Below are positions 6,328 through 64,000 of a DNA stretch of 64,000 nucleotides, piece by piece. The position numbers and the translations under genes were made by a program. The notes below the pieces were generated by a model. That model was given only the letters and a program-made list of their open reading frames with translations. It made no database searches and was not told where the DNA came from. Source of the DNA: Seohaeicola saemankumensis (GTDB lineage: Bacteria > Pseudomonadota > Alphaproteobacteria > Rhodobacterales > Rhodobacteraceae); contig NZ_JAINWI010000015.1 of assembly GCF_021021435.1 (NCBI RefSeq), positions 124,001 through 188,000 on the forward strand, given 5' to 3'. The number at the start of each line of letters is the position of its first letter. The first letter of the stretch is position 1.

Positions 6328-6571
6328 GCCTCCAAGACTAGCACGCCTCCATGCAACAGCCAGCCCGAGACTGGACCGCCAGCCGCTTGGCCTGCAACTT
6401 GCGCTTGGTCAAGACTACAACAATCAGGTATATCTGATGTCAGTAGCCATAATTTGGCCGTTTAAATCTGTCATGCAGCATTTATGGCTCGATAACTGCA
6501 TGCAGGATTTGCTAGTTAAGAGTTAACACTACCCCCCTAAGAGGGTAGGCAGGAGCAGACCGGAGCAATGA
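6328..6571. promoter_or_regulatory. Divergent intergenic region upstream of kpsT, with inverted repeat
   Basis: 244 bases between the divergent glycosylase and kpsT genes, and the only obvious place for the capsule promoter. It is AT-richer than its surroundings. A perfect 6-base inverted repeat CTACCC-N8-GGGTAG spans 6529-6548, about 25 bases before the kpsT start, where a regulator or leader hairpin could act. A TTAA-rich stretch (GTTAAGAGTTAAC) sits at 6515-6527. No confident -35/-10 pair was picked. Confidence 0.4.
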
Positions 6572-17225: not shown

Positions 17226-17289
17226 GCCGAGCCTCCGCCATTGTTGGGCGACAGTAGAACCGGCGCTGCAGGCTGACAAGGGCGCGCGC

Positions 17290-50655: not shown

Positions 50656-51686
50656 CGGCTGCGCTCCTCGTAAAAGCCCAGCTTTTCCTGCAATGGGCGG
50701 TCATGGACGCGGATCAGGAAGCTGTCTTCCTCCGCAATGTGGTCTATAGGCGCGAATGTCGGCGCCGAGAACGTATCCTTCTCCCCCCATTGCACGGTCT
50801 GTCCGTCAATGGTGCTTGCCCCCTTGCCACGGATCACGTGAAAAACCGCCGCGGATGAGGTTAAAGGCGGACTGATCTTTTCGCCCTTGGCAAGCATCAT
50901 TGCAGTGAAGCCCATCGTCGGCAGAACCGAAGTTCCGGTTTCGGGGTTCACAAAATCCAATTCGGCAGGGGACTGTCCGCCATAGGCCGCCATCTGGCGC
51001 AAGGCGGCTTCGGTCCGCGCCCAAGGATAGCGCATCATCGGATAGCGCCGCGTCTGCGCGCCTAGTTTGCGGGTCGGCGCCAGACCCGAGGACAGATATT
51101 CCACCTGACTGGCATCGGGGCGGTTACGCTGCGCCTGCAACGGCGCTTCGATCGCGTAGGAACCTTCCAGATAGACGAATAGCGGCAGATCCAACGCGTC
51201 CAGCCAGATTACCGGCTCTGTCCCGTCATGGCCGTGATCATGCCAGTCACCGCCGGGCGTCAGGACAAGATCGCCTTCCTCCATCGGAAGTTTCTCGCCA
51301 TCCACCACAGTATAGCCACCCTTGCCCTCGACAATGATGCGCGCGGCGGAAGGGGTGTGTTTATGGGCGGGCGCGGTCTCGCCGGGAAGCAGAAGTTGCA
51401 TGCCGACATAGATTGCAGGCGTCGCCATCATCGCCCCTGCCCCACGTCCCGGATCGGATAGAACCAGAACACGACGCTCGGCCTTTTCCACCGGTGTCAG
51501 TTCGCCCGCGCGCATCAAGAGCGGGCGCAATGCCCGGTATTCCCAAAAACCCGGCTTGCTGACAGGTTGGGGCGCGCCATGCGGAAGGACATTTCGCATC
51601 ATTGGCCAAAGGGGTGCCACCCCCGCCTGTGCCATCGCATCACGATAGTCCTGTGGCAGATCCTCCAGCGTTCCCAATTGGGTCAT
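50652..51686 (-). CDS. Gentisate 1,2-dioxygenase
   Basis: 344 residues from the ATG at 51686, which has a GGGAGG site; an ATG seven codons upstream is possible. Bicupin Fe(II) dioxygenase opening gentisate to maleylpyruvate. The first cupin contains the iron-binding HKHTPSAARIIVEG and later HDHGHDG; the second cupin is near AAVFHVIRGKG. It is the first gene of the operon under a promoter with a MarR-type operator. Confidence 0.92.
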   Translation of the reverse strand: MTQLGTLEDLPQDYRDAMAQAGVAPLWPMMRNVLPHGAPQPVSKPGFWEYRALRPLLMRAGELTPVEKAERRVLVLSDPGRGAGAMMATPAIYVGMQLLLPGETAPAHKHTPSAARIIVEGKGGYTVVDGEKLPMEEGDLVLTPGGDWHDHGHDGTEPVIWLDALDLPLFVYLEGSYAIEAPLQAQRNRPDASQVEYLSSGLAPTRKLGAQTRRYPMMRYPWARTEAALRQMAAYGGQSPAELDFVNPETGTSVLPTMGFTAMMLAKGEKISPPLTSSAAVFHVIRGKGASTIDGQTVQWGEKDTFSAPTFAPIDHIAEEDSFLIRVHDRPLQEKLGFYEERSR

Positions 51687-51717
51687 GTCATCCTCCCAGA
51701 TTTCCATATTTTAAGGT

Positions 51718-51746
51718 AGTATGCTTACTATTAGTATACTTGTCAA
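51718..51746 (-). promoter_or_regulatory. Gentisate operon promoter with MarR-type operator
   Basis: On the minus strand, TTGACA (51746-51741), a 17-base spacer and CATACT (51723-51718). The spacer and -10 are covered by an imperfect 23-base palindrome (51718-51740, 8 of 11 pairs matching, half site AGTATRCT). A regulator bound there would block RNA polymerase. The MarR gene is divergent, 63 bases away. Confidence 0.75.
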
Positions 51747-51802
51747 CTCACCCTGCGGGCCGCTATCCTGCGCTTCAGCGTCAGGACAGGGTAACGGCAC
51801 GA

Positions 51803-52270
51803 ATGGAGCAACTACATGATATGGCTGGGCATCTGATCCGGCGACTGCACCAGATTTCGGTTTCGGTGTTTTCCGAGCAAATGAAACTGGCGGGAATCGA
51901 CTTGACGCCTGTGCAATTCGCTGCCCTGTCGACGATCGACGCGCATCCCGACATAGATCAGGCGACCTTGGCGGGATTGATTGCCTATGACCGCGTCACG
52001 ATTGGCGGTGTTGTCGACAGGCTTGAGGCCAAGGGCCTTGTCACGCGCCGGGTCAGCCAACAGGACCGGCGCGCGCGATCCGTGCGGCTGACAGATCGCG
52101 GCGCGCAGGTCCTCGCCAGTTCCCGTCCTCTGGTGATGGCGTTTCAGGACGATATACTGACCGGATTGACCGCGGATGAACGAGCCCAGTTGATGGCTCT
52201 TATCCGCAAGACCACGGAAGCAGGGAACGCGCAAAGCCGCGCGCCCTTGCAACACCCCAAGACAGGGTAG
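51803..52270 (+). CDS. MarR family transcriptional regulator
   Basis: 155 residues from the ATG at 51803; the long frame upstream is non-coding. Winged helix-turn-helix with ATLAGLIAYDRVTIGGVVDR (recognition helices) and the wing VSQQDRRARSVRLTDRG typical of MarR/HpaR/NagR. It is divergent from the gentisate operon, with a palindromic operator between them, so it most likely represses that operon and is released by an aromatic acid or CoA ester. Convergent with the dctM-type gene. Confidence 0.88.
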   Translation: MEQLHDMAGHLIRRLHQISVSVFSEQMKLAGIDLTPVQFAALSTIDAHPDIDQATLAGLIAYDRVTIGGVVDRLEAKGLVTRRVSQQDRRARSVRLTDRGAQVLASSRPLVMAFQDDILTGLTADERAQLMALIRKTTEAGNAQSRAPLQHPKTG

Positions 52271-52276
52271 GCCCGC

Positions 52277-53581
52277 CTAGCCCGGCAACCATAAGGCGAT
52301 GGGCGGGAACAGGATCAACAGCGCCACGACAAGCAGCGAGCAGACGATGAACGGGATCGCCGACATATAGATGTCGCGCATGGTCGTGTCGGGTGGGGCG
52401 ACACCTTTCATCACGAATAGCAGAAGGCCGAATGGCGGCGTGGTAAAGCTGATCTCGAGCGCCAGAAGCATGATCAGGCCGAACCAGACCGGATCGAAAC
52501 CAAGGCTTGCGGCCAATGGAAAGAAGATCGGCACTGTCAGCAGCATCATACTGATTTGTTCCATAAACATGCCCAAAAGCAGCAGCACGGCAAACATCAC
52601 CAGCAGCATCGCAACCGGATCAAGCTCGAATCCGGTGGCCCAACGGATCAGACCGCTTGAGGCACCGGAGAAGGCCAGAAGCTGGCTGAACGTGGCCGAT
52701 CCGAAGACGATCAGATAGGCCATCAGGGTCACCCGAAGCGCGCCTGTGATGGATTTACGGATCGCTTCCCAAGTCAGGCAGCGAAACGCGACAGCAAGGA
52801 TCAGCACGCCCAGCGCCCCGAAGGCCGCCGCCTCGGAGGGGGTCACGATGCCGCCCACCATCATGAAGACGATGATGACCATGACACCCACCATCGGCAC
52901 GACATCACGCAGGAACAGCATGATCTTCTCGCCCGTCGTCATCGGCTCCACGTCATAGGCAGGGGCCGCATCCGGATCGAGTTTTGTCTGCAAAAAGATT
53001 GTGAAGATATAGAAGCTGGCCAGAAGCAATCCCGGAATAATACCCGCGATCAGCAACTTGCCCACGTCGATCCGCGCCAGTGTCGCCAGCAGCACCGCCA
53101 GCGCCGAGGGCGGGATGATGATGGCCAGACCACCGGTGCCAAGGATAGGCCCGATAGACATGTGCTTTTTGTAGCCGCGCCGGTTCATCTCAGGCACCAT
53201 GAGAGAGCCCATCAGCGCGGTCGATCCCATGGACGAGCCCGACAGCGTGGAAAACGCCGTGCCACCCAGAACAGTAACATAGGACAGACGCCCCGGCAGA
53301 CGGCCTAGTAGCTTGTCGATGGCATTGAACATGCGCCCGCCAAGGCCTGTGTGAAAGAAAATCTCGCCCATCAGCAGGAACAGCGGGATCGGCACCAGCG
53401 CAAAGCTTGTCAGCGATCCAAGACCGTTGTTCAGCAGCGCCGATATCCCTCGCTCGCCCCCCATAAAAACCCAGGCACCGATAATATTGGCGGCCAGAAA
53501 GGCCAGCGCCACGGGCATGCCAATAGCCATCAGCGCAAGGATCGCACCCAATAGCAGGCCGAGTGATTCATACCATTCCAT
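52277..53581 (-). CDS. dctM: TRAP transporter large permease subunit (DctM family)
   Basis: 434 residues with about 12 membrane segments. Family features are LNNGLGSLTSFALVPIPLFLLMGEI, FSTLSGSSMGSTALMGSLMVPEM and the C-terminal EISFTTPPFGLLLFVMKGV. It forms the transport channel of a sodium-driven TRAP importer with the DctQ subunit, whose stop overlaps its start by one base. It is the last gene of the dctP-dctQ-dctM run. Confidence 0.93.
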   Translation of the reverse strand: MEWYESLGLLLGAILALMAIGMPVALAFLAANIIGAWVFMGGERGISALLNNGLGSLTSFALVPIPLFLLMGEIFFHTGLGGRMFNAIDKLLGRLPGRLSYVTVLGGTAFSTLSGSSMGSTALMGSLMVPEMNRRGYKKHMSIGPILGTGGLAIIIPPSALAVLLATLARIDVGKLLIAGIIPGLLLASFYIFTIFLQTKLDPDAAPAYDVEPMTTGEKIMLFLRDVVPMVGVMVIIVFMMVGGIVTPSEAAAFGALGVLILAVAFRCLTWEAIRKSITGALRVTLMAYLIVFGSATFSQLLAFSGASSGLIRWATGFELDPVAMLLVMFAVLLLLGMFMEQISMMLLTVPIFFPLAASLGFDPVWFGLIMLLALEISFTTPPFGLLLFVMKGVAPPDTTMRDIYMSAIPFIVCSLLVVALLILFPPIALWLPG

Positions 53582-54087
53582 TATTCGTGTATCCCCGCTT
53601 CACCGGAATGCATCAGCTCTTCGCCAAAGACAAAGCGCGAGAATTCGATCGCCATCATGCCGAAACAGATCGGGAAAGAGATGGTAAGTATCCAGCGCGG
53701 AAAGTAATAGGCGCGCACGTCATAGTCATTTCGCGCAATATTGGTTGTCACCAGATCATAGCCTTTCCATGCAAGGATCAGGCTGACAATGACGCAGGCC
53801 AGCGCCACACCGCGACTGACAAGGCGGCGAATGGGCGCGGGCAGAGCGGCCGTCACAAGTTCGATATGCACATGGCCCTTTTCGCGCACCAGCCAAGGCG
53901 CGCCCAGCATGGTGATGTAGAGCATCGCATATTCGGTCGAGGTAAAAAGCCAAGCCCAAGGTTGCATGCCAAGGTTCCGCAGGCCCACTGACAGGATGAC
54001 CGCGATCATCACCCAGACCAGCATGGCACCCGCAAGGACGGCCATTCCATAGAGAAGCAGGGTATAGGATCGGGACAATATCTGCAT
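53581..54087 (-). CDS. dctQ: TRAP transporter small permease subunit (DctQ family)
   Basis: 168 residues from the ATG at 54087; a TTG five codons upstream is less likely. Four membrane segments, with W-rich loops (LGMQPWAWLFTSTEYAMLY) and the PWLVREKGHVHIELV stretch typical of DctQ. It holds the large subunit and receives the binding protein. Two strong hairpins separate it from dctP, which probably lowers its expression relative to the binding protein. Confidence 0.88.
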   Translation of the reverse strand: MQILSRSYTLLLYGMAVLAGAMLVWVMIAVILSVGLRNLGMQPWAWLFTSTEYAMLYITMLGAPWLVREKGHVHIELVTAALPAPIRRLVSRGVALACVIVSLILAWKGYDLVTTNIARNDYDVRAYYFPRWILTISFPICFGMMAIEFSRFVFGEELMHSGEAGIHE

Positions 54088-54105
54088 GAGTGCCTCGGGC
54101 AAATG

Positions 54106-54134
54106 GGAACGGGCGACAGTGATGCGCCCGTTCC
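54106..54134 (-). terminator. Intercistronic hairpin 2 between dctP and dctQ
   Basis: GGAACGGGCG / CGCCCGTTCC, a perfect 10-base stem with a 9-base loop. There is no T-run in the minus direction, so it is likely an mRNA-stabilising or attenuating structure rather than a full terminator. Confidence 0.55.
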
Positions 54135-54144
54135 GAAAAAGACT

Positions 54145-54170
54145 GGCGCGGCCCCGCAGGGGAACGCGCC
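54145..54170 (-). terminator. Intercistronic hairpin 1 between dctP and dctQ
   Basis: GGCGCG(g)CCCC-gca-GGGG(aa)CGCGCC, a 10-pair stem with a small internal loop, directly after the dctP stop. With the next hairpin it forms a tandem structure that would protect the dctP message. Confidence 0.55.
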
Positions 54171-54177
54171 GCCGGAC

Positions 54178-55191
54178 TTACTTGTCCAGTTCAGGGTTGT
54201 AGAACAGACCGATCAGGGTGTCATACTGCCCGTCACCCATCGGATGCTCTGCCATCAGGCCCTTCATGCGGCCCCATGTCTTTTCGCGGGCAGCAGCCAG
54301 ATAGTTGGCGCGCGCTTCGCCCTGAAGCTCGACGACTTTCATGCCGCCCGCTTCCAGCGCCGCGAAATCCTCGTCCCGCTTGGTCCGCAGGGCTTCGACC
54401 GAGGCGCGCTCGTGTTCGATTGCCACATCCTGCAGGATGGTCTTGGCCTCGTCTGACAGGCTGTTCCAGCGGTCAAGGTTCACGATCACGCCCAAATCGG
54501 TCGAAAAGAAATTTGGCTCGACGCGGTAGTTCAGGAACTCGTTCCATTTCAGGTCGATCAGACCGATCTGGGTCCAACCGGTCGCATCAACCACGCCACG
54601 CTCTAGGCCGGAATAGACCTCGGTTGTGGGAAGGTCGATCACCTGCGCGCCAAGATACTCGGTGAAGAACGCGTTATACACCGCGTTGCCGCGCAGCTTG
54701 ATGCCGGAAATGTCCAGATTGCCGTCAGTGTCCAGTTTGGGTTCGTTCTTCATCCACAGGTTATAGCTGACACCACTGTCGAACCAGCCAAGGTATTTGA
54801 CACCCATCTTGGCCTGATGGATTTCGTCGATCAAGGCGATGCCGCCATTCTCGCGCGCTTCGATAGCGGTCAGGTTCGAGGCGACCAGCGCATCTTTCTC
54901 GGGCAGCGCACCACCGTAGAAGCTGCCGGGTGTATAAACCATATCCACGACTCCGTCGCGTACGGCATCGGCTTGCTGCATCATGCCGATGGCTTCGGGG
55001 CCGCCGCGCACTTCAATCTGCACAACGCCCTCGCCTGCCGCATTCACCTTTTCGACGAACTGCAGGAAAGACTGCGTGTAGATCAGTGTGGTCGGGAAAG
55101 CATGCACAGCGGTCAGTGTCTCCTGTGCCGTCGCCGCAGCGCCGATCAGGGTGGAACCGGCGACTATCCCGCCGACAAATGTCATTTTCAT
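54178..55191 (-). CDS. dctP: TRAP transporter substrate-binding protein (DctP family)
   Basis: 337 residues with a Sec signal peptide (VGGIVAGSTLIGAAATAQ). DctP fold features: QIEVRGGPEAIGMMQQADAV, the region with the conserved carboxylate-binding Arg (SGIKLRGNAVYNAF) and LPTTEVYSGLERGVVDAT. It captures an organic acid in the periplasm. The gene is downstream of a leuC/leuD-like pair and a GntR gene on the same strand, so the transported compound may be the substrate of those enzymes. The start has an AAGGAGAG site. Confidence 0.92.
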   Translation of the reverse strand: MKMTFVGGIVAGSTLIGAAATAQETLTAVHAFPTTLIYTQSFLQFVEKVNAAGEGVVQIEVRGGPEAIGMMQQADAVRDGVVDMVYTPGSFYGGALPEKDALVASNLTAIEARENGGIALIDEIHQAKMGVKYLGWFDSGVSYNLWMKNEPKLDTDGNLDISGIKLRGNAVYNAFFTEYLGAQVIDLPTTEVYSGLERGVVDATGWTQIGLIDLKWNEFLNYRVEPNFFSTDLGVIVNLDRWNSLSDEAKTILQDVAIEHERASVEALRTKRDEDFAALEAGGMKVVELQGEARANYLAAAREKTWGRMKGLMAEHPMGDGQYDTLIGLFYNPELDK

Positions 55192-55265
55192 CGTTTCTCT
55201 CCTTTTTCGGGGTCGTTACCCCCGCCCTGTTGAAGGTGCCCCTTTTGAGGTCACCTGGTTATGGA

Positions 55266-55292
55266 CCGTGCGCCCGCAATGCGGGCGCACGG
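55266..55292 (-). terminator. Strong hairpin between leuD-like gene and dctP
   Basis: CCGTGCGCCCGC / GCGGGCGCACGG, a perfect 12-base stem with a 3-base loop, just after the leuD-like stop. No T-run follows on the minus strand, so it may be a processing, stabilising or Rho-assisted site. Confidence 0.5.
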
Positions 55293-55298
55293 GGTCTT

Positions 55299-55922
55299 TC
55301 ACTTCGCCTCGCCCGCCATGGCATCCAGCATGGCATAGGGAGCCTGCTCTGCCCTTGCTGCGCGGAACATAGCAATGGCGGGGCCATGGCTGGCGGTCAT
55401 GTCGATGTCATCCCAACCGTTCAGCAGTTTCAGTCGCCAGATCGGGTCCAGATCGAACGGGATCACCTCGTTGCCAATGCGTATCTCACAGGCCTGCAGA
55501 TCGACGGTCATGGGTGCCTTGCCGTCACCCAGCCGTCCGATCAGATCCTCTATTCTGTCTTCTGACACGCGCGCGGGTAGCAATCCGTTGTTCACCGCGT
55601 TCGAGGCAAAGATATCCCCAAAGCTCAAGGCAATCACCGCCTTGATGCCGAAATCTACCAGCGCATAAACAGCCGCCTCGCGCGAGGAGCCTGACCCGAA
55701 ATTGCGACGGGTCACTAGAATTTCCGCATCAACGTGATGGTTCAGGGGCATCAGTGCGCGAGGAGCGCCCGCGCTGTCAAAACGCAGATCGTGCAGCAGA
55801 TATGGCCCGTAGCCATCCTTGCGCGGCACAGACATGAAACGCGCAGGGATCAGTTGGTCTGTGTCGATATTATCCTGCGGCAGTGCTACAGCAGGGCCTT
55901 CGATGATGCTGAAGCCGGCCAT
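55299..55922 (-). CDS. LeuD-like hydratase small subunit (aconitase family, non-leucine paralogue)
   Basis: 207 residues from the ATG at 55922, 2 bases after the large-subunit stop. The swivel domain carries DNIDTDQLIPARFM and NFGSGSSREAAVYAL. In true LeuD the last motif is GCGSSREHAPW; here the His is Ala. The pair is linked to GntR, Hyu and TRAP genes rather than leuB. Likely reactions are hydration of maleate or an alkylmaleate to a malate. Ordinary isopropylmalate isomerase remains possible. Confidence 0.7.
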   Translation of the reverse strand: MAGFSIIEGPAVALPQDNIDTDQLIPARFMSVPRKDGYGPYLLHDLRFDSAGAPRALMPLNHHVDAEILVTRRNFGSGSSREAAVYALVDFGIKAVIALSFGDIFASNAVNNGLLPARVSEDRIEDLIGRLGDGKAPMTVDLQACEIRIGNEVIPFDLDPIWRLKLLNGWDDIDMTASHGPAIAMFRAARAEQAPYAMLDAMAGEAK

Positions 55923-55924
55923 CG

Positions 55925-57331
55925 TCACACCCTTCCGTCCAGCAAGGGGCGCACATCGGTCAGCGTGCCTGTCACAGCCGCCGCCGCCACCATCGCGGGG
56001 CTCATCAGGTGGGTGCGCGCGCCGCGCCCCTGACGGCCCTTGAAGTTGCGGTTGGTCGACGAGGCGCAGCGTTTGCCCGCGCCGACCAGATCGCCGTTCA
56101 TGCCCACGCACATCGAACAGCCCGACGCGACCCATTCCAGACCAGCATCGGTAAAAATCCGGTCCAACCCTTCGCGTTCCGCCTGCGCCTTGACCAGCGC
56201 CGACCCCGGCGAGACCAGACCCGGCACCTTCGCCTTGCGCCCCGACAGCACGGCTGCGGCAAGGCGCAGATCCTCGATCCGGCCATTTGTGCAGGAACCG
56301 ATGAAAACCTGATCCACCGGTGTGCCCTGAATCCTCTGGCCCGGAACAAGACCCATATATTCCATCGCAGCACGGACCTGATCGGCGCGGGCGCGGTCCA
56401 GTTCGGCGGGATCAGGCAGGTTTGCGGTGATCGGCAACGCCTCTTCGGGGCTGGTGCCCCATGTGACGGTTGGCGCGATCTCGGCCCCGTCCAGAGTGAT
56501 CTCGCTGTCGAAAATCGCATCCGCGTCACTGGCAAGCGCCCGCCAGTCGGCAACAGCTCGGTTCCAATCCTTAGCTTTCGGCGCGAACGGACGCCCCTCG
56601 ATATAGGTGAAGGTCACGTCATCGGGTGCCACCATCCCGCAACGGGCACCGCCCTCGATGGACAGATTGCAAAGCGTCATGCGCCCTTCCATGCTCATGT
56701 TTTCGACGACCGGCCCCGCATATTCGATCGCGTGCCCGCGCGCACCATCAGCGCCCAACCGCGCGATCCAGAACAGCGCCAGATCCTTGGCCGAGACCGC
56801 AGGCCCCAATTGCCCTGTCACTGTGATCCGCATCGTCTTGGGCCGCTTTTGCCAGATCGTCTGCGTGGCCAGCACATGCGCCACTTCGGTCGCACCGATC
56901 CCGAAGGCCAGCGCGCCGAAGGCTCCGTGAGTGGAGGTATGGCTGTCCCCGCAATTGATCAGCAGGCCCGGCAAGGTCAGCCCCTGTTCCGGTCCCATCA
57001 CATGCACGATCCCCTGACGCGGATCGCGCATCCCGAAGCATCGGATGCCGTGGCGGGCCGTATTCTCTTCCAGCGTGCGGATCATTCGCGCGATATCCGG
57101 ATCGGCAATCCTGTCGCGTTCCCGAGTCGGCGCGTAGTGGTCCACGACACCAATCGTCAAGGCAGGCTCGGCGACCGGCAGACGACGCTCAGCCAGTTTA
57201 GCAAAGGCATGGTGCGAGCCTTCATGCACCAGATGCCGATCCACCCAGAGAAGTGATGCACCATCCTCGCGCTGCAAGACTTCATGCGCATCCCAGACCT
57301 TGTCGAACAATGTGCGGGAGTTTGCCGTCAT
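55925..57331 (-). CDS. LeuC-like hydratase large subunit (aconitase family, non-leucine paralogue)
   Basis: 468 residues with the 4Fe-4S aconitase fold. Conserved blocks: VDRHLVHE, CGDSHTSTHGAFGALAFGIG with the first cluster Cys, FIGSCTNGRIEDLR, and SGCSMCVGMN with the last two. It departs from LeuC in EGSHHAFAKL (usually EVTSPQAFEGL) and in the shortened VVDHYAPTRERD region. Maleate hydratase of the gentisate direct-hydrolysis route (HbzIJ type) or dimethylmaleate hydratase are better functional guesses than leucine synthesis. The start overlaps the GntR stop by 4 bases. Confidence 0.72.
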   Translation of the reverse strand: MTANSRTLFDKVWDAHEVLQREDGASLLWVDRHLVHEGSHHAFAKLAERRLPVAEPALTIGVVDHYAPTRERDRIADPDIARMIRTLEENTARHGIRCFGMRDPRQGIVHVMGPEQGLTLPGLLINCGDSHTSTHGAFGALAFGIGATEVAHVLATQTIWQKRPKTMRITVTGQLGPAVSAKDLALFWIARLGADGARGHAIEYAGPVVENMSMEGRMTLCNLSIEGGARCGMVAPDDVTFTYIEGRPFAPKAKDWNRAVADWRALASDADAIFDSEITLDGAEIAPTVTWGTSPEEALPITANLPDPAELDRARADQVRAAMEYMGLVPGQRIQGTPVDQVFIGSCTNGRIEDLRLAAAVLSGRKAKVPGLVSPGSALVKAQAEREGLDRIFTDAGLEWVASGCSMCVGMNGDLVGAGKRCASSTNRNFKGRQGRGARTHLMSPAMVAAAAVTGTLTDVRPLLDGRV

Positions 57332-58176
57332 TCCGCTGCCTCACGAGCAGTTGGATCACCGATCACCGGCTCCCAATGCCTGTCGCCGCCCAGCCCTACC
57401 CGGGTCAGCGTCATCTCAAGCCGGAAGGCATCTGCACGGTACAGCGCCGATAGATATTCCACGCCCTGACCGTTGATATCACGCACAACACGACGCAACG
57501 ACAGAAGGGCTGAACCGACCGATACGCCAAGCGCCTCGGCCACATCGGGCGAGGCCAGCGTGGCTGTGACCGACTGGTGCGCGGCATCCACTTCGACACC
57601 CGAGCGCTCGAGAAGTCGGAAAAGCGGCGTCGTGGCCAGATCGGCTTCGGTATAGTTGGTGGCAATCGCTTCGGGCACATAGGTCGTCAGGTGCGAGAAG
57701 GGCCGCCCCTCGACAAGCCGGACGCGCACGGCAGTTTGCACCCGCGCACCTTCGGGCAGCGCCATTGCCGTGGCGACCGTGTCGGGCGCTGGACCGTAGG
57801 AGAATGACAAAAGCCTTGCTGTTGTGGATTGCCCCATCGCGACAAGCTGCGGGATCAGTGTGGTGAAATCGGCGGCCAGCGGCGCCGATGCGCCCTCAGG
57901 CGCACGCACAATGCTTCCGCTACCGGCGCGCTTTTCGATCAGGCCGTCAGCGGCCAGCGCCTCGAGCGCGCGCCGGATGGTCACACGCGAAACACCATGC
58001 AACTCGGCCAGACGCTGTTCTCCAGGCAAGCTGGTTCCGGCGGGAAAAGTGCCGTTGGACATGTCATCGCGCAGCAACAGATAGACCCTGCGCGCCTTAC
58101 CGCCCTCTGGCAGACCAGACCTGAGCTGTGTGTTCAAAGCCACCCCCAAAGCGCCGTCAACACGACGGATTCGCAC
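57328..58176 (-). CDS. GntR family regulator, HutC/UTRA type
   Basis: 282 residues from a GTG at 58176; a GTG at 58143 is an alternative and fits the family start better. The GntR winged helix (LPGEQRLAELHGVSRVTIRRAL) spans about residues 35-95, followed by a UTRA effector domain (YLSALYRADAFRLEMTLT near the end). It is the first gene of the minus-strand run with leuC/leuD-like genes and is divergent from the tautomerase-hyu operon, so it probably controls both directions through a shared operator. Confidence 0.85.
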   Translation of the reverse strand: MRIRRVDGALGVALNTQLRSGLPEGGKARRVYLLLRDDMSNGTFPAGTSLPGEQRLAELHGVSRVTIRRALEALAADGLIEKRAGSGSIVRAPEGASAPLAADFTTLIPQLVAMGQSTTARLLSFSYGPAPDTVATAMALPEGARVQTAVRVRLVEGRPFSHLTTYVPEAIATNYTEADLATTPLFRLLERSGVEVDAAHQSVTATLASPDVAEALGVSVGSALLSLRRVVRDINGQGVEYLSALYRADAFRLEMTLTRVGLGGDRHWEPVIGDPTAREAAE

Positions 58177-58235
58177 ACAAACGTATCAACGGCTTTCAGA
58201 AAAGCAAGTAATCCGTCATATCAATCATCATAAAT

Positions 58236-58278
58236 TTGATCTTTCCAGATACTAAAATCTGTATTAGCAAAGATACAG
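58236..58278 (+). promoter_or_regulatory. Candidate promoter and GntR operator of the hyu operon
   Basis: TTGATC (58236-58241), a 17-base spacer and CTGTAT (58259-58264) form a plausible promoter. The perfect inverted repeat CTGTAT-N8-ATACAG (58259-58278) starts at the -10, so a bound GntR dimer would repress. A second overlapping dyad AGAT-N6-ATCT lies at 58247-58260. Confidence 0.55.
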
Positions 58279-58298
58279 GTTATTCAGGGAGGGATGCG

Positions 58299-58868
58299 AT
58301 GCCGATTATTGAGGCGCATGTGCTTGAAGGCTACGACAACGATGCAAAAACGCGGCTGGGCAAGGCTTTGACAGAGGCTGTGCAGCTTGTCGTGCCTGCT
58401 GCTCCCGATGCGATTACGGTGATTCTGCACGAGATGCCGACGGCCCATTACATGCGTGGCGGTACTCACCCGACAGGTGCACCTGCCCTGCCTGATCCTT
58501 GTGCAATCGTCCGCGAGTATCTGGCCGCGATGGAGGCACGCGAGCTTGAGCGTGCCCGCGCGATGCTGGACAAGGGTTTTGTGATGAATTTCCCCGGCGC
58601 CTCTGGTCTAACAACTCTGGACGAGTTGATCGCATGGTCGAAGCCCCGCTATCGTTTCGTCAGGAAAACCTATGACGGGTTCGAGGCTTTGCAGGGCGAT
58701 GGGTGCGCCATCGTCTATGCGCGCGGCACCCTTTACGGCGAATGGCCCGATGGCACGCCGTTTCAGGGCATCCGCTTTGTCGATCGGTTCGAGATCACAG
58801 CAGGCCGGATCACGCGACAGGATGTCTGGAACGACATCGCCGAAGTAAAGGCAGCAGGACAAGAATGA
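58299..58868 (+). CDS. Tautomerase-SnoaL-like fusion protein
   Basis: 189 residues from the ATG at 58299 (CAGGGAGGG site). Residues 1-~68 resemble 4-oxalocrotonate tautomerase, with the catalytic Pro directly after Met (MPIIEAHVLEG). Residues ~75-185 are a SnoaL/NTF2-like domain (AIVREYLAAMEARELERARA, GIRFVDRFEITAGRITRQDV). The fusion could couple isomerisation of an unsaturated acid with a second lyase or isomerase step. It overlaps hyuB by 4 bases and is the first gene of the catabolic operon. Confidence 0.75.
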   Translation: MPIIEAHVLEGYDNDAKTRLGKALTEAVQLVVPAAPDAITVILHEMPTAHYMRGGTHPTGAPALPDPCAIVREYLAAMEARELERARAMLDKGFVMNFPGASGLTTLDELIAWSKPRYRFVRKTYDGFEALQGDGCAIVYARGTLYGEWPDGTPFQGIRFVDRFEITAGRITRQDVWNDIAEVKAAGQE

Positions 58869-60568
58869 CACAGACCGCAGATATCGACCCGATCACGCTG
58901 GCCGTTCTGGCAGGCCGGATGGAGCAGATCGCCGACGAGATGGACGCGACCCTGTTCCGTGCAGCCTTCAACCCGATCATCGCCGAGGCTCATGACGCGT
59001 CGCACGGACTTTACCATGCCCTTTCCGGCGACACGCTTGTGCAGGGCAAATCGGGACTGCCAATTTTTGTGGGCGTCATGTCATTCGCGGTAAAAGCCGT
59101 GATCGACAAAGCCGCTGAACATGGCGAGGTCCACGACGGGGATATCTATATCTTCAACGATGCGCATCTGGGCGGCACCCATCTGTCGGATATGCGTCTG
59201 GTGCGGCCCTATTTCCGCGATGGGCAGTTGTTCTGCTATCTCGCCTCGGTCGGGCATTGGCATGACGTGGGCGGCGCGGTTCCCGGCAACTACAACCCCG
59301 CCGCTACCGATGCGTTTCAGGAAGCTTTCGTGCTGCCGCCTGTGCGACTGGCGCGCGGGGGCCAAGTGAATACCGACATCATCGACATCCTGATGCGGAA
59401 CACCCGCCTGCCGCAATCGGCCATGGGCGATCTGAACGGGCAGTTGGGCGCGCTGGATCTGGGTGTGCGCCGGATGGACGAGCTTTTGGACGAATACGGC
59501 ACGGATACCGTCAGTGCGGCGCTGGATGCTCTGGGCCATCGCGCCGAAGCCTTGATGCGGGCCGAGTTGACTGCCCTACCGGACGGCCGTTGGGAGGCTG
59601 TAGATTTTCTGGACAATGACGGGATCACCGATGTCGCTTTGCCGATCAAGGTCGCGCTTGAAATCAAGGGCGACACGATGGTGCTGGATTTCGATGGCAC
59701 AGCTCCGCGTTGTGCGGGTCCGGTCAATATAGCCCTGCCCACTGCGGTGGCCACGGCCTATGTGGCAATCAAGCATATCTTTCCGGCGCTACCTGCCAAT
59801 GCGGGCGTGATGCGACCCATCAAGGTGCGCATCCCCGAGGGGTCTTTGCTGTCGGCAGAGTTTCCGGCACCCGTGGGCGGCTATACCGAAACGATCCTGC
59901 GGATGATCGATGTTATTTTTGCGGCCGCGGGCCAAGCCGCACCCGACCGCGTGGTGGCCAACGCCTATGGCACGATCAACGCGCTGTCGATTGCAGGCAA
60001 GCGCAAGAATGGCCAGCCTTGGGTGATGTTCAGCTTTTACGGAGGAGGGCATGGCGGGTCGCCCGAGGGTGACGGGTTGAACCACGGCAATGCGCCGATC
60101 TCGACCGCGACAATCCCGCCGCTGGAGATTCTGGAAGCGGCCTATCCGGTGATGTTCCGGCAATGGGCTTTGCGCCCCGACAGCGCGGGTGCGGGGGCGC
60201 ATCGCGGAGGTTTGGGTGCAGTCTACGAGATCGAGGTGTTGGAGGAGAATGGGGCCGAGGCGTTCCTGTTCGGCGAACGGGGCCACTTTGCGCCCAAGGG
60301 GGCTGCAGGCGGTGGCGAAGCGGCGATGAACGTCTTTTCCTATGAGCAGGCGGATGGCTGGCATCATCCGCCGCTGGCGTCGAAAATGCGCGGGATCAAA
60401 CTGGTCCAGGGGCAGGCCGTGCGTCTGGAAACACCGGGGGGTGGTGGCTATGGCGCAGCCTCGCTGCGGGATCCGAAGGCCGTAGCGCGGGATGTGGCGC
60501 TGGGTCTGATCAGCGCGGACGAGGCGGATAAAGCATATGGAACCGCATGGAAAGGGGCGCAGGCATGA
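58865..60568 (+). CDS. hyuB: Hydantoinase B/oxoprolinase family protein
   Basis: 567 residues from the ATG at 58865, overlapping the preceding stop. HyuB is the cyclising-amide hydrolase subunit working with HyuA in ATP-dependent opening of lactams, hydantoins or imides (N-methylhydantoinase, 5-oxoprolinase, caprolactamase); carboxylases of the acetone/acetophenone type are distant relatives. Hallmarks: YIFNDAHLGGTHLSDM, VGHWHDVGGAVPG, FSFYGGGHGGSPEGDG and the C-terminal LETPGGGGYG. The natural substrate is not evident from sequence. Confidence 0.9.
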   Translation: MTQTADIDPITLAVLAGRMEQIADEMDATLFRAAFNPIIAEAHDASHGLYHALSGDTLVQGKSGLPIFVGVMSFAVKAVIDKAAEHGEVHDGDIYIFNDAHLGGTHLSDMRLVRPYFRDGQLFCYLASVGHWHDVGGAVPGNYNPAATDAFQEAFVLPPVRLARGGQVNTDIIDILMRNTRLPQSAMGDLNGQLGALDLGVRRMDELLDEYGTDTVSAALDALGHRAEALMRAELTALPDGRWEAVDFLDNDGITDVALPIKVALEIKGDTMVLDFDGTAPRCAGPVNIALPTAVATAYVAIKHIFPALPANAGVMRPIKVRIPEGSLLSAEFPAPVGGYTETILRMIDVIFAAAGQAAPDRVVANAYGTINALSIAGKRKNGQPWVMFSFYGGGHGGSPEGDGLNHGNAPISTATIPPLEILEAAYPVMFRQWALRPDSAGAGAHRGGLGAVYEIEVLEENGAEAFLFGERGHFAPKGAAGGGEAAMNVFSYEQADGWHHPPLASKMRGIKLVQGQAVRLETPGGGGYGAASLRDPKAVARDVALGLISADEADKAYGTAWKGAQA

Positions 60569-62643
60569 GCATGCAAAAGACCGCAGGCCGCATGATCGGC
60601 GTTGATGTCGGCGGCACCTTCACCGATGTGTTTGTACTCGACGAGGCCGCAGGCACTGCCACGGTTGCCAAGGTGCCCACAACCCGCCCCGACCAGTCGG
60701 GCGGGTTTCTGGACGGGATCGGGCGGCAGGTATCGGACTTGTCCTCGGTTGCTGTCGTGGTGCATGGCACAACCGCAGGCACCAACGCCCTGCTGGAACG
60801 CAAAGGTGCTAAGATCGGCGTGATCACCACAGCGGGTCTGCGTGACGTCCTGGAAATGCGCCGCCGCGACCGTCCGCGAACATGGGGACTGCGCGGCGAT
60901 TTCACACCCGTTGTACCGCGCGATCTGCGCCTTGAAGTGCCGGAACGGACACTGGCGGATGGCGCAATCCGTGTGCCCGTCGATCTGGACGCGGTACGCG
61001 CAGCCGCCCGGACCCTGCAGGATCAGGGTTGCGCAGCCGTCGCGGTCATGTTCGCCAATGCCTATGCCAACCCCGCCAACGAGGCAGCTGCCGTGGCCGC
61101 GATCCGCGAAATCTGGCCCAACAGCCATGTCTCGGCTTCGTCCGAGATCCTGCCAGAGATCCGCGAGTTCGAACGGTTTTCGACCACCGCGCTGAACGCC
61201 TATCTGCAACCCGAAGTCTCGGGTTATCTGGACCGCTTGGAAAATGCGCTGAAACAGGGCGGCTTTGGCGGCGAGTTCATGATCGTACAGTCGAACGGCG
61301 GTGTAATGGCGGTGGATACCGCCTGCCGCTTACCGGTCCGCACGGCTTTGTCCGGTCCCGCAGCGGGGGTGATCGCGGCGGCCTATATCGCGCAGATGGC
61401 GGGCTTTCCCGATGTCATCACGGGGGACATGGGCGGCACCAGTTTCGACGTATCGCTGATCGCGGGAGGCAAGTCGATGCTGTCGCCGCAAACCTCCATC
61501 GACTTCGGCATGGTCGTGCGCTCGCCGATGATCGAGATCACCACGATCGGCGCGGGCGGCGGCTCTATCGCATGGGTGGACAAGGGCGGGTTGCTGATGA
61601 TCGGGCCGGAAAGCGCCGGATCGAACCCCGGCCCTGTGGCCTACGGGCTTGGCAACACACGGCCCACGGTGACGGATGCGAATGTCGTACTGGGCCGGAT
61701 TGACCCCGACAACCCCATCGGCGGCAAGTTGACACGGCTGGATGTAGATGCAGCGGCAAAGGCGATTGACCAACATGCGGGCCAGCCCCTCGGTCTGGAT
61801 ACGCTGGCCGCGGCCGAAGCGATCCTGCGCGTCGCCAACAGCCGCATGGCGGGCGCAATCCGTCTGGTCAGTATCGAACGGGGCTTTGATCCCAAGCGGT
61901 TCGCCTTCATGCCATTCGGCGGGGGCGGCGCGCTGCATTCCGGCGCGATGCTGGCCGATGTGGGATTGGCCCGCGCCATCGTGCCGCGTTATCCCGGCGT
62001 CACCTCGGCCATGGGCTGTGTGATTGCTGATATGCGGCAGGATTTTGTGCAAACCGTCAATGCGATGGTGGACGGGTTGGAGGAGGCCAGTCTTGCTGCT
62101 TTCATGCAATCCCATATGGATCAGGGCCTTGCGATGCTCGACGCCGCCCAAACCCGCTTCGAAGCGCGCGATACGGCGTTCGAGCTGGACATGGCTTATG
62201 TCGGGCAGACCCATACCGTCGCCGTGCCGCTACCGGTGACCATCACGGATGGACGCGTCATCGCACCGACCCGCGCACAGATCGCCGAGGCTTTTGATGC
62301 GGCCTATAAAGCGACATACGGTCGCCTGTTGCCCAAAGGCGCGCGGCGGGTAATGAATCTGCGCTCTGCCGTGACCGGACGCCGACCCAAATTTGATCTT
62401 GCCACGCTAGCCCCCCGCAGCACCGGCACGCCCGAGGACGCCCGCAAGGGCGAACGAAAGGTGCATTTCGGGGACCGCTGGCATGACACCGCGATTTACA
62501 ACCGCCTTGATCTGCCCGTCGGTGCCGTGATCCACGGCCCCGCCATTCTGGAACAACCCGATACGACGGTCTTGATCGAGCCGGACCTGACCGGCACAGT
62601 CGACGCTTTCGGCAACACTATCATCACACGGCAGGAGAATTGA
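60565..62643 (+). CDS. hyuA: Hydantoinase A/oxoprolinase family protein
   Basis: 692 residues from the ATG overlapping the hyuB stop; an ATG two codons later is also possible. The actin-like ATPase fold is shown by IGVDVGGTFTDVFVLDE at the N-terminus, VVHGTTAGTNALLERKGAK, TGDMGGTSFDVSLI and FGGGGALHSG. HyuA phosphorylates the amide or carbonyl of the ring so that HyuB can open it. No zinc-binding gamma subunit follows, which argues against the acetone/acetophenone carboxylase branch. Confidence 0.92.
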   Translation: MSMQKTAGRMIGVDVGGTFTDVFVLDEAAGTATVAKVPTTRPDQSGGFLDGIGRQVSDLSSVAVVVHGTTAGTNALLERKGAKIGVITTAGLRDVLEMRRRDRPRTWGLRGDFTPVVPRDLRLEVPERTLADGAIRVPVDLDAVRAAARTLQDQGCAAVAVMFANAYANPANEAAAVAAIREIWPNSHVSASSEILPEIREFERFSTTALNAYLQPEVSGYLDRLENALKQGGFGGEFMIVQSNGGVMAVDTACRLPVRTALSGPAAGVIAAAYIAQMAGFPDVITGDMGGTSFDVSLIAGGKSMLSPQTSIDFGMVVRSPMIEITTIGAGGGSIAWVDKGGLLMIGPESAGSNPGPVAYGLGNTRPTVTDANVVLGRIDPDNPIGGKLTRLDVDAAAKAIDQHAGQPLGLDTLAAAEAILRVANSRMAGAIRLVSIERGFDPKRFAFMPFGGGGALHSGAMLADVGLARAIVPRYPGVTSAMGCVIADMRQDFVQTVNAMVDGLEEASLAAFMQSHMDQGLAMLDAAQTRFEARDTAFELDMAYVGQTHTVAVPLPVTITDGRVIAPTRAQIAEAFDAAYKATYGRLLPKGARRVMNLRSAVTGRRPKFDLATLAPRSTGTPEDARKGERKVHFGDRWHDTAIYNRLDLPVGAVIHGPAILEQPDTTVLIEPDLTGTVDAFGNTIITRQEN

Positions 62644-62646
62644 ACA

Positions 62647-63267
62647 ATGGGCGATTTGACAGCGATTGATCCCCGACGCACGGCTCTTCTGACCATCGAC
62701 TTGCAAAACGATTTCCTGCATCCCGATGGTGCCTATGGCAGGGCGGGACAGGGCGCGGACGCGATCAAGGCCCTGCCCGACCGCGTCGCCCCATTGCGCG
62801 ATGCGCTGCGCGCCAGCGGTGGCACCTATGTGTCGGCCCAGTTCACGCTGGTTCCCGGACCGGAAGGTGAGCCGCTGATCGCGCCGCATCTCAAGCAGAT
62901 GCGCCCCTTCCTGACAAAGGGTGACTTCGCACCAGGGGGCTTTGGTCACGACCTTGTCGATACGCTGGCACCCGCTGATTATACCATTGAAAAGGTGGCC
63001 TATTCCGCATTCTACCAGACACGACTGGAATACATCCTGCGCGCCCTGAATATTGATACGCTGATCGTCGGCGGGATCGTCACCAATGGCGGGGTCGCCA
63101 GCACGTTGCGCGACGCGCATCTGCGCAATATCGAGACTATCATGCTCTCGGATGGTTGCGCCGCCTTCAAGCAGGAGGTGCATGACGCCACGCTGGTCTC
63201 GCTCGGCACTGTCACCCATGTGATGACCTGCGCCGAGACGATCGCCCTGCTGGAGTCTACACGATGA
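62647..63267 (+). CDS. Isochorismatase-fold hydrolase lacking the catalytic cysteine
   Basis: 206 residues of the cysteine-hydrolase/isochorismatase family. The catalytic Asp (TIDLQNDFLHPDG) and Lys (TIEKVAYSAF) are present, but the nucleophile position of the usual TNxCV motif is TNGGV, so Cys is Gly. Isochorismatases proper also have Gly here, whereas amidases such as N-carbamoylsarcosine hydrolase need Cys. A non-amidase reaction or altered mechanism is therefore likely. It follows hyuA by 3 bases and overlaps the lyase gene by 4. Confidence 0.8.
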   Translation: MGDLTAIDPRRTALLTIDLQNDFLHPDGAYGRAGQGADAIKALPDRVAPLRDALRASGGTYVSAQFTLVPGPEGEPLIAPHLKQMRPFLTKGDFAPGGFGHDLVDTLAPADYTIEKVAYSAFYQTRLEYILRALNIDTLIVGGIVTNGGVASTLRDAHLRNIETIMLSDGCAAFKQEVHDATLVSLGTVTHVMTCAETIALLESTR

Positions 63268-64000
63268 GCTTGCCCGCCCGCCTGACCGCCCCCGAGATCC
63301 TGATCGCCCCCGGCGTCTATGACGGTTTGACCGCGACACTGGCAGAACAAGCAGGCTTCGAGGCGCTGTATCTGTCCGGTGCCGCGGTTGCCTATACGCG
63401 ACTGGGACGACCCGATATCGGACTGACTTCGGTGTCGGAAATGGCCGATACGATGGCGCTGGTCCGCGACCGTACCGCCCTGCCCGTCATCATCGACGCC
63501 GATACCGGTTTTGGCAACGCGTTGAACGCGCAGCGCACCATGCGGGTCTATGAACGGGCAGGGGCTTCGGCTTTGCAGATCGAGGATCAGACCTATCCCA
63601 AACGCTGTGGGCATCTGGCGGATAAATCCCTGATATCCAAGCAGGAAATGGCAGGAAAAATCGCCGCGATGGCCGATGCCCGCGCCAGTGACGCCACACT
63701 GATCATCGCGCGCACCGATGCGATCGCAGTCGAGGGTTTCGTCGCCGCCATGGACCGCGCCGAGGCCTATGTCGCCGCCGGTGCCGATGTGCTGTTCATC
63801 GAAGCCCCGCGCACGGGCGACGAACTGGCCACGGTCGCGCAGACCTTCAAGGGCCGCGTGCCGCTGCTGGCGAATATGGTCGAGGGTGGACATACGCCTA
63901 TCACAGCGGCCAGCGACTTGCAGGCCCTTGGTTTTGATATCGTGATCTTTCCAGGTGGCATTGTCCGCGCCCTCGCCCGCAGCGCGCAGGATTACTATGC
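63264..64000 (+). CDS. Isocitrate lyase/PEP mutase family lyase (partial)
   Basis: Cut by the window end; 245 residues visible of an expected ~285. TIM-barrel family with APGVYDGLTATLAEQAGFEA, metal-binding IIDADTGFGN, and the catalytic loop EDQTYPKRCGHLADK. The KRCGH loop with Cys marks C-C bond lyases (isocitrate, 2-methylisocitrate or 2,3-dimethylmalate lyase) rather than PEP mutase or oxaloacetate decarboxylase. A malate-type product of the LeuCD-like hydratase would be a fitting substrate. Confidence 0.85.
   Translation, partial: MSLPARLTAPEILIAPGVYDGLTATLAEQAGFEALYLSGAAVAYTRLGRPDIGLTSVSEMADTMALVRDRTALPVIIDADTGFGNALNAQRTMRVYERAGASALQIEDQTYPKRCGHLADKSLISKQEMAGKIAAMADARASDATLIIARTDAIAVEGFVAAMDRAEAYVAAGADVLFIEAPRTGDELATVAQTFKGRVPLLANMVEGGHTPITAASDLQALGFDIVIFPGGIVRALARSAQDYY

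Follow-up and report, generated by a model that had tools for sequence, protein, structure and literature searches.

A conserved divergent gene cluster of Seohaeicola saemankumensis that looks like an undescribed route for the breakdown of a small nitrogen-containing ring compound

Gene content and organization of the locus

A locus of Seohaeicola saemankumensis brings together genes for TRAP uptake, a LeuCD-like hydratase, HyuAB and a C-C lyase, which raises the question of whether these parts serve a single pathway and, if so, what kind of compound enters it. A sequence-only reading of the window (the whole stretch of 64,000 nucleotides analysed here) had described two divergent operons around a gntR gene, and all the genes that it named were recovered as open frames on the strands described (Table 1). 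With the starts used here, 4-base overlaps are seen between leuD and leuC, leuC and gntR, the tautomerase gene and hyuB, and the isochorismatase and lyase genes, while hyuB and hyuA overlap by 22 bases; given such overlaps in both arms, both look like operons. The tautomerase-SnoaL gene most likely starts at the ATG at 58299, with a proline directly after the methionine; the alternative TTG at 58236 looks too early. The lyase gene ends 133 bases beyond the window end; 3 bases separate it from the next gene, that for an FAD (flavoprotein) dehydrogenase (fad; L002:13638-15005), which is the 12th gene of the conserved cluster and has to join the earlier list of pathway parts.

Table 1. Features of the divergent cluster (window coordinates)
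Feature	Coordinates	Strand	Family match or remark
dctM, TRAP large permease	52277..53581	-	PF06808 3.6e-79; in conserved order in 45/58 loci (from the best 80 of at least 442 HyuB relatives)
dctQ, TRAP small permease	53581..54102	-	PF04290 6.9e-20
dctP, TRAP solute-binding protein	54178..55191	-	PF03480 5.4e-27
leuD-like small subunit, aconitase-family hydratase	55299..55928	-	PF00694 9.6e-21; start GTG 55928 or ATG 55922
leuC-like large subunit, [4Fe-4S] hydratase	55925..57331	-	PF00330 1.2e-157
gntR regulator, HutC-type, UTRA	57328..58176	-	PF07702 1.8e-34, PF00392 7.4e-17
Inverted repeat CTGTAT-N8-ATACAG, probable operator shared by the two arms	58259..58278	.	Sole match in window within 1 mismatch
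Tautomerase-SnoaL fusion, ATG start	58299..58868	+	PF01361 1.3e-10, PF12680 1.2e-6
hyuB, metal-site subunit, ATP-dependent cyclic-amide hydrolase	58865..60568	+	PF02538 8.6e-167
hyuA, ATP-binding subunit	60547..62643	+	PF01968, PF05378, PF19278
Isochorismatase-fold protein without catalytic Cys (Gly149)	62647..63267	+	PF00857 4.3e-33
PEP mutase/isocitrate lyase-family C-C lyase, KRCGH loop	63264..64000, cut by window end	+	PF13714 6.9e-42

Linkage and spread of the cluster

The reading of these parts as one pathway implies that the LeuCD, Hyu and lyase genes should stay together in other genomes, and this is what we observed. Among the HyuB-seeded loci with enough flanking sequence (58 of the best 80 of at least 442 HyuB relatives, the other 22 being too short to score), leuC, leuD, hyuA and the isochorismatase-fold and lyase genes lay within 10 kb in all 58, and the complete 12-gene order was seen in 45. 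With LeuC as the seed, 23 of the 25 other loci contained hyuB, the two exceptions being truncated at contig ends, and 16 had all 12 genes; of the incomplete loci, L035, L037, L040 and L045 run into a contig end, as does L049, which also has no gntR and no nearby TRAP genes. Nearby TRAP genes are further missing in L039, L051, L052 and L054, with fad also missing in L051 and L052 as well as in the HyuB-seeded loci L143, L166, L168 and L173. A gene of the HyuB-seeded loci was scored as present if it had a match anywhere in the locus; the counts for TRAP genes therefore take in further TRAP sets that share about 50% identity, and those for the tautomerase take in the SnoaL-only protein of L168. 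Furthermore, given that some loci are the same contigs in both seeded sets (for example L112/G027 and L121/G106), the two tests are not independent, and L104 and L105 look like duplicate entries of a single contig. Even so, chance falls far short of explaining the linkage, and at the level of sequence conservation the cluster is real and acts as one unit.

Of 149 genera sampled from the family to which the window belongs, 26 have the LeuC marker. HyuB matches occur in 44 plasmid records, and the 8 plasmid loci that we viewed all carry LeuC, LeuD, HyuB and the isochorismatase-fold protein, with the lyase and HyuA each in 7/8 and fad in 6/8; the Tistrella plasmid locus has an unannotated gap whose size is right for the missing HyuA. 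One such plasmid is from Sulfitobacter pontiacus. The set is kept with a shuffled gene order in Azospirillum, Paraburkholderia, Variovorax, Roseomonas and rhizobia. In Tistrella-type clusters (also L179) no lyase is in view, and genes for an acyl-CoA dehydrogenase and a CoA-transferase are present, the CoA-transferase of the Tistrella and L180 versions being of the succinate-glutarate type. Asp/Glu racemase-family genes were noted in the Neorhizobium cluster, and an MmgE/PrpD-family gene in the Roseomonas and Neorhizobium versions. A link to gentisate or maleate metabolism through the neighbouring FAH-fold hydrolase and cupin genes (49960-51707) was rejected, these genes having no matches in the 26 other LeuC-seeded loci; a single FAH-family match (36%, L159) was found among the best 80 of at least 442 HyuB relatives.

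A candidate operator between the two arms

The inverted repeat between the arms, for which 0.02 matches within one mismatch were expected in the window, is present in 33 of 52 such divergent regions, at the same place in relatives, and was absent within two mismatches from the other 19, counts in which the consensus came from the very regions being counted and the shuffles ignore common descent. Its position between both operons and its recurrence suggest one GntR operator for the two, whereas the regions without a site and the background of further sites speak against a tidy regulon. A search of 18 of the 26 cluster-bearing genomes at up to two mismatches returned 74 sites, as against 39 in a backward control; 14 of these lie at clusters, and 4 of the 18 genomes have none at theirs. 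The genome of S. saemankumensis itself has 10 further operator-like sites at two mismatches, as against 1 in the control. Three sites within one mismatch lie outside clusters (G005:C15, G135:C10 and G067:C40:101253); the genes around G005:C15 and around the two-mismatch look-alikes G067:C40:56309 and G024:C28 have no context common to all three.

These observations bear on the possibility that two unrelated pathways merely lie side by side around one regulator. The operons are indeed divergent, and some loci have no TRAP genes near leuCD or no fad. However, the co-occurrence in 58/58 loci (from the best 80 of at least 442 HyuB relatives), the retention of the set despite its shuffling in Azospirillum, Paraburkholderia, Roseomonas and rhizobia, and the single operator candidate that would serve both arms make such an arrangement exceedingly improbable.

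Conserved residues of the predicted ring-opening enzyme

The predicted role of HyuAB in ring opening finds both its ATP and metal sites intact. The HyuB metal ligands D44, H106, D109 and H131 align with D41, H99, D102 and H124 of CapB and are kept in 80/80 loci (the best 80 of at least 442), and the tested residues of the HyuA ATP motifs DVGGTFTD, DMGGT and GSNPGP are kept in all 77-79 alignable loci of the same 80. These features, an Asp-His-Asp-His metal site and ATP motifs spread over two subunits, are common to the caprolactamase CapAB as described in PMC8453981. The caprolactamase is also the best NCBIfam model for both HyuA and HyuB; however, they score well below its cut-offs (308 and 506 of 1000 bits), and their genetic context differs, suggesting that the substrate is probably another one. 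In PDB searches, N-methylhydantoinase was the best match for both subunits. HyuAB is likewise similar to acetone and acetophenone carboxylases and could, as a ketone or keto-acid carboxylase, deliver a product for LeuCD and the lyase to process. However, the carboxylase scores lie well below those for hydantoinase and caprolactamase, and the third subunit that related carboxylases have according to the same paper (PMC8453981) is absent from the conserved gene set; we set this role aside as very improbable.

The hydratase and lyase module

The LeuCD-like pair passes the NCBIfam leuC and leuD cut-offs, and automatic annotation therefore calls it LeuCD. A role in leucine biosynthesis as isopropylmalate isomerase is ruled out by a separate canonical LeuCD pair elsewhere in the genome, with 55% identity to the cluster version, and by differences in conserved motifs: VHEGSHHAF in the cluster versus VHEVTSPQAF in the canonical pair, and SSREA in the LeuD-like subunit (65/65 alignable loci) versus SSREH in the canonical LeuD. 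Three cluster-binding cysteines (C347, C405 and C408), as expected of an aconitase-family [4Fe-4S] hydratase, are kept in 65/65 alignable loci of 69, in agreement with the earlier claim of an Fe-S hydratase distinct from the leucine pair. In Paraburkholderia and Variovorax the hydratase slot is filled by another aconitase-family lineage with a LeuD/DmdB-type small subunit, suggesting that the hydration step is needed; the Paraburkholderia small subunit scores above the LeuD/DmdB family cut-off (152.4 vs 108.95 bits), whereas that of the window falls below it (73.5 vs 108.95 bits). In a LeuC tree, for which 20 named loci were chosen and L126 and L157 dropped by a hit or length filter, the Hyu-linked rows did not form one clade. 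A lyase next to or close by a LeuCD relative, with no HyuAB, was found in 7 of 20 further loci and in L058, where a PuuE allantoinase-family protein stands in place of HyuAB; thus, the hydratase and the lyase behave as a module. Given that 10 of the 20 further LeuC-relative loci have no lyase nearby and that the Tistrella-type clusters have none in view, this lower part is not invariant.

The lyase retains its loop cysteine (Cys115), preceded by arginine in 69 and lysine in 3 loci at position 114, and the metal-binding pair Asp78 and Asp80 in 72/72 loci, which bears out the assignment to C-C lyases with a KRCGH loop. At 286.6 bits it lies below the cut-off of the curated PrpB equivalog (354.4 bits) and so falls short of a methylisocitrate lyase; among its relatives in sequence is the dimethylmalate lyase of known structure 3fa3.

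Accessory proteins

The FAD dehydrogenase has tyrosines, Tyr290 (63/63) and Tyr433 (62/62; alignable of 64 loci), at the columns of the two fumarate reductase arginines, which we take to be Arg402 and Arg544 of flavocytochrome c3; the same was seen in 6/6 rows of a further alignment, and two aligned histidines are kept. Lacking the two dicarboxylate arginines typical of fumarate reductases, it may act on the ring rather than on the opened acid. The N-terminal proline of the tautomerase, the hallmark tested for 4-oxalocrotonate tautomerases, is present in 60/61 alignable loci (76 have a match, 15 of them unalignable at this column). The nearest solved structures to DctP are 4mnc and 4mni (32% identity, TM 0.81 and 0.80), whose ligand is presumably benzoylformate.

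Loss of the catalytic cysteine

Cysteine hydrolases of the isochorismatase fold are typified by an Asp-Lys-Cys triad, as given in PMC3581539. The cluster protein keeps Asp18 (68/68) and Lys116 (71/71 alignable loci) and has Gly149 in place of the cysteine in 71/71 alignable loci of 73, with the same NGG motif in the loci of Sulfitobacter, Tistrella, Azospirillum, Paraburkholderia, Roseomonas, Neorhizobium, Variovorax and an Allorhizobium plasmid. Hence this step cannot be that of an ordinary Cys amidase, a point on which the earlier interpretation has to be amended. Its closest relatives in sequence and fold are the ureide hydrolases RutB, BiuH and TrtA, with PhzD also among the matches.

These relatives, the top PDB match of both Hyu subunits to N-methylhydantoinase and the racemase-family genes of Neorhizobium would suit a cyclic ureide, such as a substituted hydantoin or pyrimidine, that HyuAB opens to an N-carbamoyl acid whose carbamoyl group is then handled by the isochorismatase-fold protein. 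However, RutB, BiuH and TrtA use the very cysteine that is glycine in all 71 alignable loci, and it is hard to see what LeuCD and the lyase would do once an N-carbamoyl amino acid has formed, so that we regard a ureide as unlikely. True isochorismatases such as PhzD have a Cys-less site with Asp and Lys kept. HyuAB might open a pyrrolinone-type or similar unsaturated lactam to an enamine acid, which the Cys-less enzyme would hydrolyse to a keto acid by protonation, in a chemistry like that of isochorismatase on a vinyl ether, with LeuCD and the lyase further down. The retained Asp and Lys, the PhzD match and the caprolactamase models, though below their cut-offs, favor this sequence of events; the presence of ureide hydrolases among the best relatives and the want of an evident way from the keto acid to a LeuCD-type hydratase speak against it, leaving it unlikely.

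A proposed pathway

Tentatively, and with a little less than an even chance of being right, we favor one regulon for the catabolism of a small, probably anionic cyclic imide or lactam. Sequence itself gives the genes and their conservation, the catalytic residues kept in HyuAB, LeuC, the lyase and the tautomerase, the loss of the cysteine and the operator candidate; the reactions, their order and the substrate class we infer. After import of the ring compound by the TRAP system, its oxidation state and double-bond position would be set by the FAD dehydrogenase together with the tautomerase-SnoaL protein, and HyuAB would open the ring with ATP being spent. The Cys-less enzyme would take off the nitrogen group thus freed, with no covalent intermediate on the enzyme; a cysteine would be dispensable, since the neighbouring carboxylate of a substituted cis-maleamate can itself serve as nucleophile. 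The LeuCD-like Fe-S enzyme would then hydrate the substituted maleate to a substituted malate, which the KRCGH lyase would split to pyruvate (or glyoxylate) and a short acid.

Alkylmaleimides are compatible with this scheme, as are other rings; the earlier interpretation holds up as regards a single conserved pathway-like cluster, but nothing singles out maleimides as its substrate. Against an imide, a hydantoin or pyrimidine would probably better suit the ureide hydrolases closest to the isochorismatase-fold protein, and alkylsuccinate is perhaps not the substrate of an FAD enzyme without the fumarate reductase arginines. Furthermore, to our knowledge simple imides need no ATP for opening, which speaks against HyuAB being needed for them. 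A more specific and quite improbable version is a dedicated route for the single-ring imides that remain when chlorophyll, heme and bilins are oxidized, chiefly hematinic acid: HyuAB would open the alkylmaleimide, ammonia would be lost via the neighbouring carboxylate (hence no cysteine), LeuCD would hydrate the alkylmaleate and the lyase would yield pyruvate and glutarate. If so, the succinate-glutarate-type CoA-transferase of Tistrella and L180 would take up the glutarate, and dihydro forms derived from chlorin rings would enter through the FAD dehydrogenase.

Relationship to known systems and significance

The nicotinate fermentation of Eubacterium barkeri ends with 2,3-dimethylmaleate hydratase (DmdAB) and 2,3-dimethylmalate lyase. 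The cluster resembles it in placing an aconitase-family hydratase beside a PEP mutase/isocitrate lyase-family lyase, in the kinship to 3fa3 and in the LeuD/DmdB-level score of the Paraburkholderia small subunit. In contrast, its pair stands together with uptake systems of the TRAP or ABC kind, an ATP-dependent ring-opening step and an FAD dehydrogenase, and no B12 mutase gene was found among the conserved cluster genes. The 2-methylcitrate cycle (PrpD, aconitase, PrpB) likewise has hydration followed by a KRCGH lyase, and the MmgE/PrpD-family genes of Roseomonas and Neorhizobium recall it; however, the cluster lyase lies below the PrpB cut-off, ring opening comes first, and the conserved genes include no citrate synthase. 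In line with the earlier claim that no described pathway joins these parts, a literature search found none, its coverage being thin enough that the known enzymes of nicotinate fermentation were also missed.

The cluster looks like one undescribed route for the import, opening and cutting of a small nitrogen-containing ring compound into common metabolites. Given the spread of the 12-gene unit over genera, on a plasmid and in soil and sea bacteria, its substrate is probably common in both settings. Databases label the parts as leucine synthesis, hydantoinase and cysteine hydrolase; once the substrate is named, many genome annotations could be put right, and the cycle of a nitrogen-ring compound could be completed at its last step. 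If that substrate were a tetrapyrrole fragment, the cluster would supply a missing end of chlorophyll and heme breakdown.

Gene organization and linkage of the cluster

The last 12 kb of the window are occupied by two divergent operons flanking a GntR gene (Table). The lyase gene is complete once the sequence past the window end is added, and the gene for a 455-residue FAD protein (fad) begins 3 bases on; the top scores of this protein are to flavocytochrome c models, and also to TcuA, all below the respective cut-offs. For the start codons adopted here, four junctions (leuD/leuC, leuC/gntR, tautomerase/hyuB and isochorismatase-fold/lyase) show an overlap of 4 bases each, and hyuB/hyuA one of 22 bases.

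Features of the cluster and of loci related to it
Feature	Position	Strand	Content
Minus-strand operon		-	gntR-leuC-leuD-dctP-dctQ-dctM
Plus-strand operon		+	tautomerase-SnoaL fusion, hyuB, hyuA, isochorismatase-fold protein, KRCGH lyase
Candidate operator	58259-58278		CTGTAT-N8-ATACAG
Genes beyond dctM	49960-52270		fumarylacetoacetate-hydrolase family, cupin (gentisate-dioxygenase-like by eye), MarR
L143 (Sulfitobacter, without fad and tautomerase), after lyase	15408-17302		two-subunit Rieske-type ring-hydroxylating oxygenase (by eye)
L168 (Salipiger, without fad), beyond leuD	1610-6945		old-yellow-enzyme, GMC oxidoreductase, two carboxymuconolactone-decarboxylase-like proteins (all by eye)

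The sequence-only reading had treated these parts as one linked unit, and the linkage held in other genomes when examined from both LeuC and HyuB seeds. Among 149 Rhodobacteraceae genomes (one per genus, our own included), a close LeuC relative with at least 69% identity was found in 26, with canonical LeuC set apart at about 55%. At the 25 other loci thus recovered, hyuB was present in 23, both misses (L035 and L037) being cut by contig ends, and the complete set of 12 genes, fad included, was seen at 16. Of the remainder, four were cut by contig ends and four had no TRAP genes nearby, two of these being also without the FAD gene; the last, L049, was cut by a contig end and in addition had neither gntR nor TRAP genes in its vicinity. 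The HyuB seed, which yielded a partly overlapping set, drew in at least 442 relatives in the named genomes, and 58 of the best 80 had enough flanking sequence to be scored. All 58 carried leuD, leuC, hyuA and the isochorismatase-fold and lyase genes within the locus, and the others were nearly as constant (tautomerase 55, fad 54, gntR 53, dctP 52, dctQ 52, dctM 50), with the complete gene order retained in 45. The genes directly beyond dctM had no match in the 26 other loci of the LeuC-seeded set. We also noted all 12 genes on a 230-kb plasmid of Sulfitobacter pontiacus (pDSM110277_b), a location in keeping with the patchy distribution of the cluster.

A candidate operator in the divergent region

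The 122-base gap between gntR and the tautomerase gene contains an inverted repeat (Table) that is the sole match within one mismatch in the 64 kb (0.02 expected), and indeed in the whole genome. Excision was possible for 52 divergent regions, that of the window among them; 33 have a site at most two mismatches from CTGTATTN6AATACAG and 19 have none, and no such site occurred in 20 mononucleotide-shuffled sets. Of the 26 cluster-bearing genomes, 18 were searched, with a site within two mismatches at the cluster in 14 and none there in four; their whole-genome total was 74 such sites versus 39 in a backward control. The simplest reading of these sequence patterns is a single candidate operator that would serve both arms. 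In our own genome, 10 further sites at two mismatches, versus 1 in the control, are possible additional GntR targets.

Active-site features of the encoded enzymes

HyuB retains, in 80 of 80 loci, four metal ligands aligned to those reported for caprolactamase (PMC8453981). The three ATP motifs of HyuA are kept in alignable loci, as is the N-terminal Pro of the tautomerase in 60 of 61. The KRCGH loop of the lyase is likewise kept, with Arg replaced by Lys in 3 of 72. Among the PDB relatives of the lyase are methylisocitrate lyases, dimethylmalate lyase and petal death protein, whose preferred substrate is 2-ethyl-3-methylmalate, as well as oxaloacetate hydrolase and PEP mutases.

Public records label the isochorismatase-fold protein a cysteine hydrolase. 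Its Asp and Lys are conserved, but Gly replaces the Cys in every alignable locus (71/71, of 73) and in all 8 plasmid loci viewed. By sequence and by predicted fold (pLDDT of the model, 85), its nearest relatives include RutB, BiuH and TrtA, which use a Cys and have ureides as substrates. In the FAD enzyme, Tyr occupies both columns at which fumarate reductases have the two arginines for holding and protonating the dicarboxylate (63/63 and 62/62 alignable loci, and 6/6 rows of a separate alignment).

The LeuCD pair and variant clusters

A separate canonical LeuCD is encoded in the same genome. The cluster LeuC keeps the three Fe-S cluster Cys residues (65/65 alignable of 69) but reads VHEGSHHAF in place of the canonical VHEVTSPQAF, and its LeuD has SSREA (65/65 alignable loci) in contrast to the SSREH of our canonical LeuD and three solved LeuD proteins. 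In a 51-row tree (bootstrap not fully settled), the four canonical rows formed one supported clade; the Hyu-linked rows required 3 changes versus 16.8 in shuffles and were not a single clade, and the VHEGS signature was shared by some LeuC relatives without HyuAB.

The loci of Paraburkholderia (L091) and Variovorax (L094) also encode HyuB, HyuA, the lyase and the Cys-less isochorismatase-fold protein, here next to a different aconitase-family pair. The L091 large subunit, of the PRK00402/hacA family, shares 34% identity with the window LeuC, and its small subunit scores above the LeuD/DmdB family cut-off. Two hydratase lineages in one slot are good evidence that a hydration step is part of the pathway.

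In place of the TRAP set, a branched-chain-type ABC importer is encoded at the loci from Azospirillum oryzae, Paraburkholderia, Roseomonas, Neorhizobium, Variovorax and Allorhizobium; the Roseomonas and Neorhizobium versions add an MmgE/PrpD-family gene, and the latter further an old-yellow-enzyme-family and two Asp/Glu racemase-family genes. Tistrella and L179 carry a CaiB-type CoA-transferase together with an acyl-CoA dehydrogenase, with no lyase in view, and L180 combines such a transferase with the lyase; the transferase scores highest with succinate-glutarate CoA-transferase, at 533 and 513 bits against a cut-off of 750. At L143 a further TRAP set follows the oxygenase genes, and at L168 a SnoaL-only protein missing its tautomerase half also lies beyond leuD.

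A LeuC relative was present in another 35 genomes, and its surroundings were examined in 20 of them. Three were Hyu clusters (L178-L180), at seven a lyase lay next to or close to leuCD and HyuAB was absent (L181-L185, L188, L194), and at ten no lyase was seen near leuCD (L176, L177, L186, L187, L189-L193, L195). L058 has LeuCD, lyase and FAD relatives and no Hyu gene; a protein of the PuuE allantoinase family is encoded there (117.8 of 424.6 bits, a family-level assignment). Together with the seven, this suggests that hydratase and lyase form a recurring module behind differing first steps. At L190 and L192, cluster-type LeuCD relatives are followed by an apparent isopropylmalate dehydrogenase (by eye), without a lyase, and near what appear to be tripartite tricarboxylate transporter genes; these are perhaps another substituted-malate route.

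A proposed pathway and a candidate substrate

The earlier frame of TRAP uptake, Hyu ring opening, LeuCD-like hydration and C-C cleavage of a cyclic imide or lactam is retained overall, with ring conditioning added and nitrogen removal made Cys-free. After import, the FAD enzyme and tautomerase would condition the ring, which would then be opened at the expense of ATP; the nitrogen group would be removed without a Cys, and a substituted maleate would be hydrated before the C-C bond is cleaved. Dialkylmaleamates shed their amine via the neighbouring carboxylate, so that no catalytic Cys would be required, and the tendency of ring-opened dialkyl forms to re-close would explain the use of ATP. These two chemical points favour a dialkylmaleimide as the candidate substrate. 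In leaves and sediments, oxidation of chlorophyll and heme is reported to yield hematinic acid and related maleimides (PMC7318184, PMC8669743). The nearest structures to the solute-binding protein, at 32% identity or less, include, by title, binders of keto acids, lactate, isethionate, pyroglutamate, aromatic acids and C4-dicarboxylates, so the DctP ligand is likely a small acid, nothing more specific.

A literature search for combinations of these parts, its scope leaving out most subscription journals, found nothing relevant. The enzyme families are all known; what is new to us is their assembly and the Cys-less enzyme within it.
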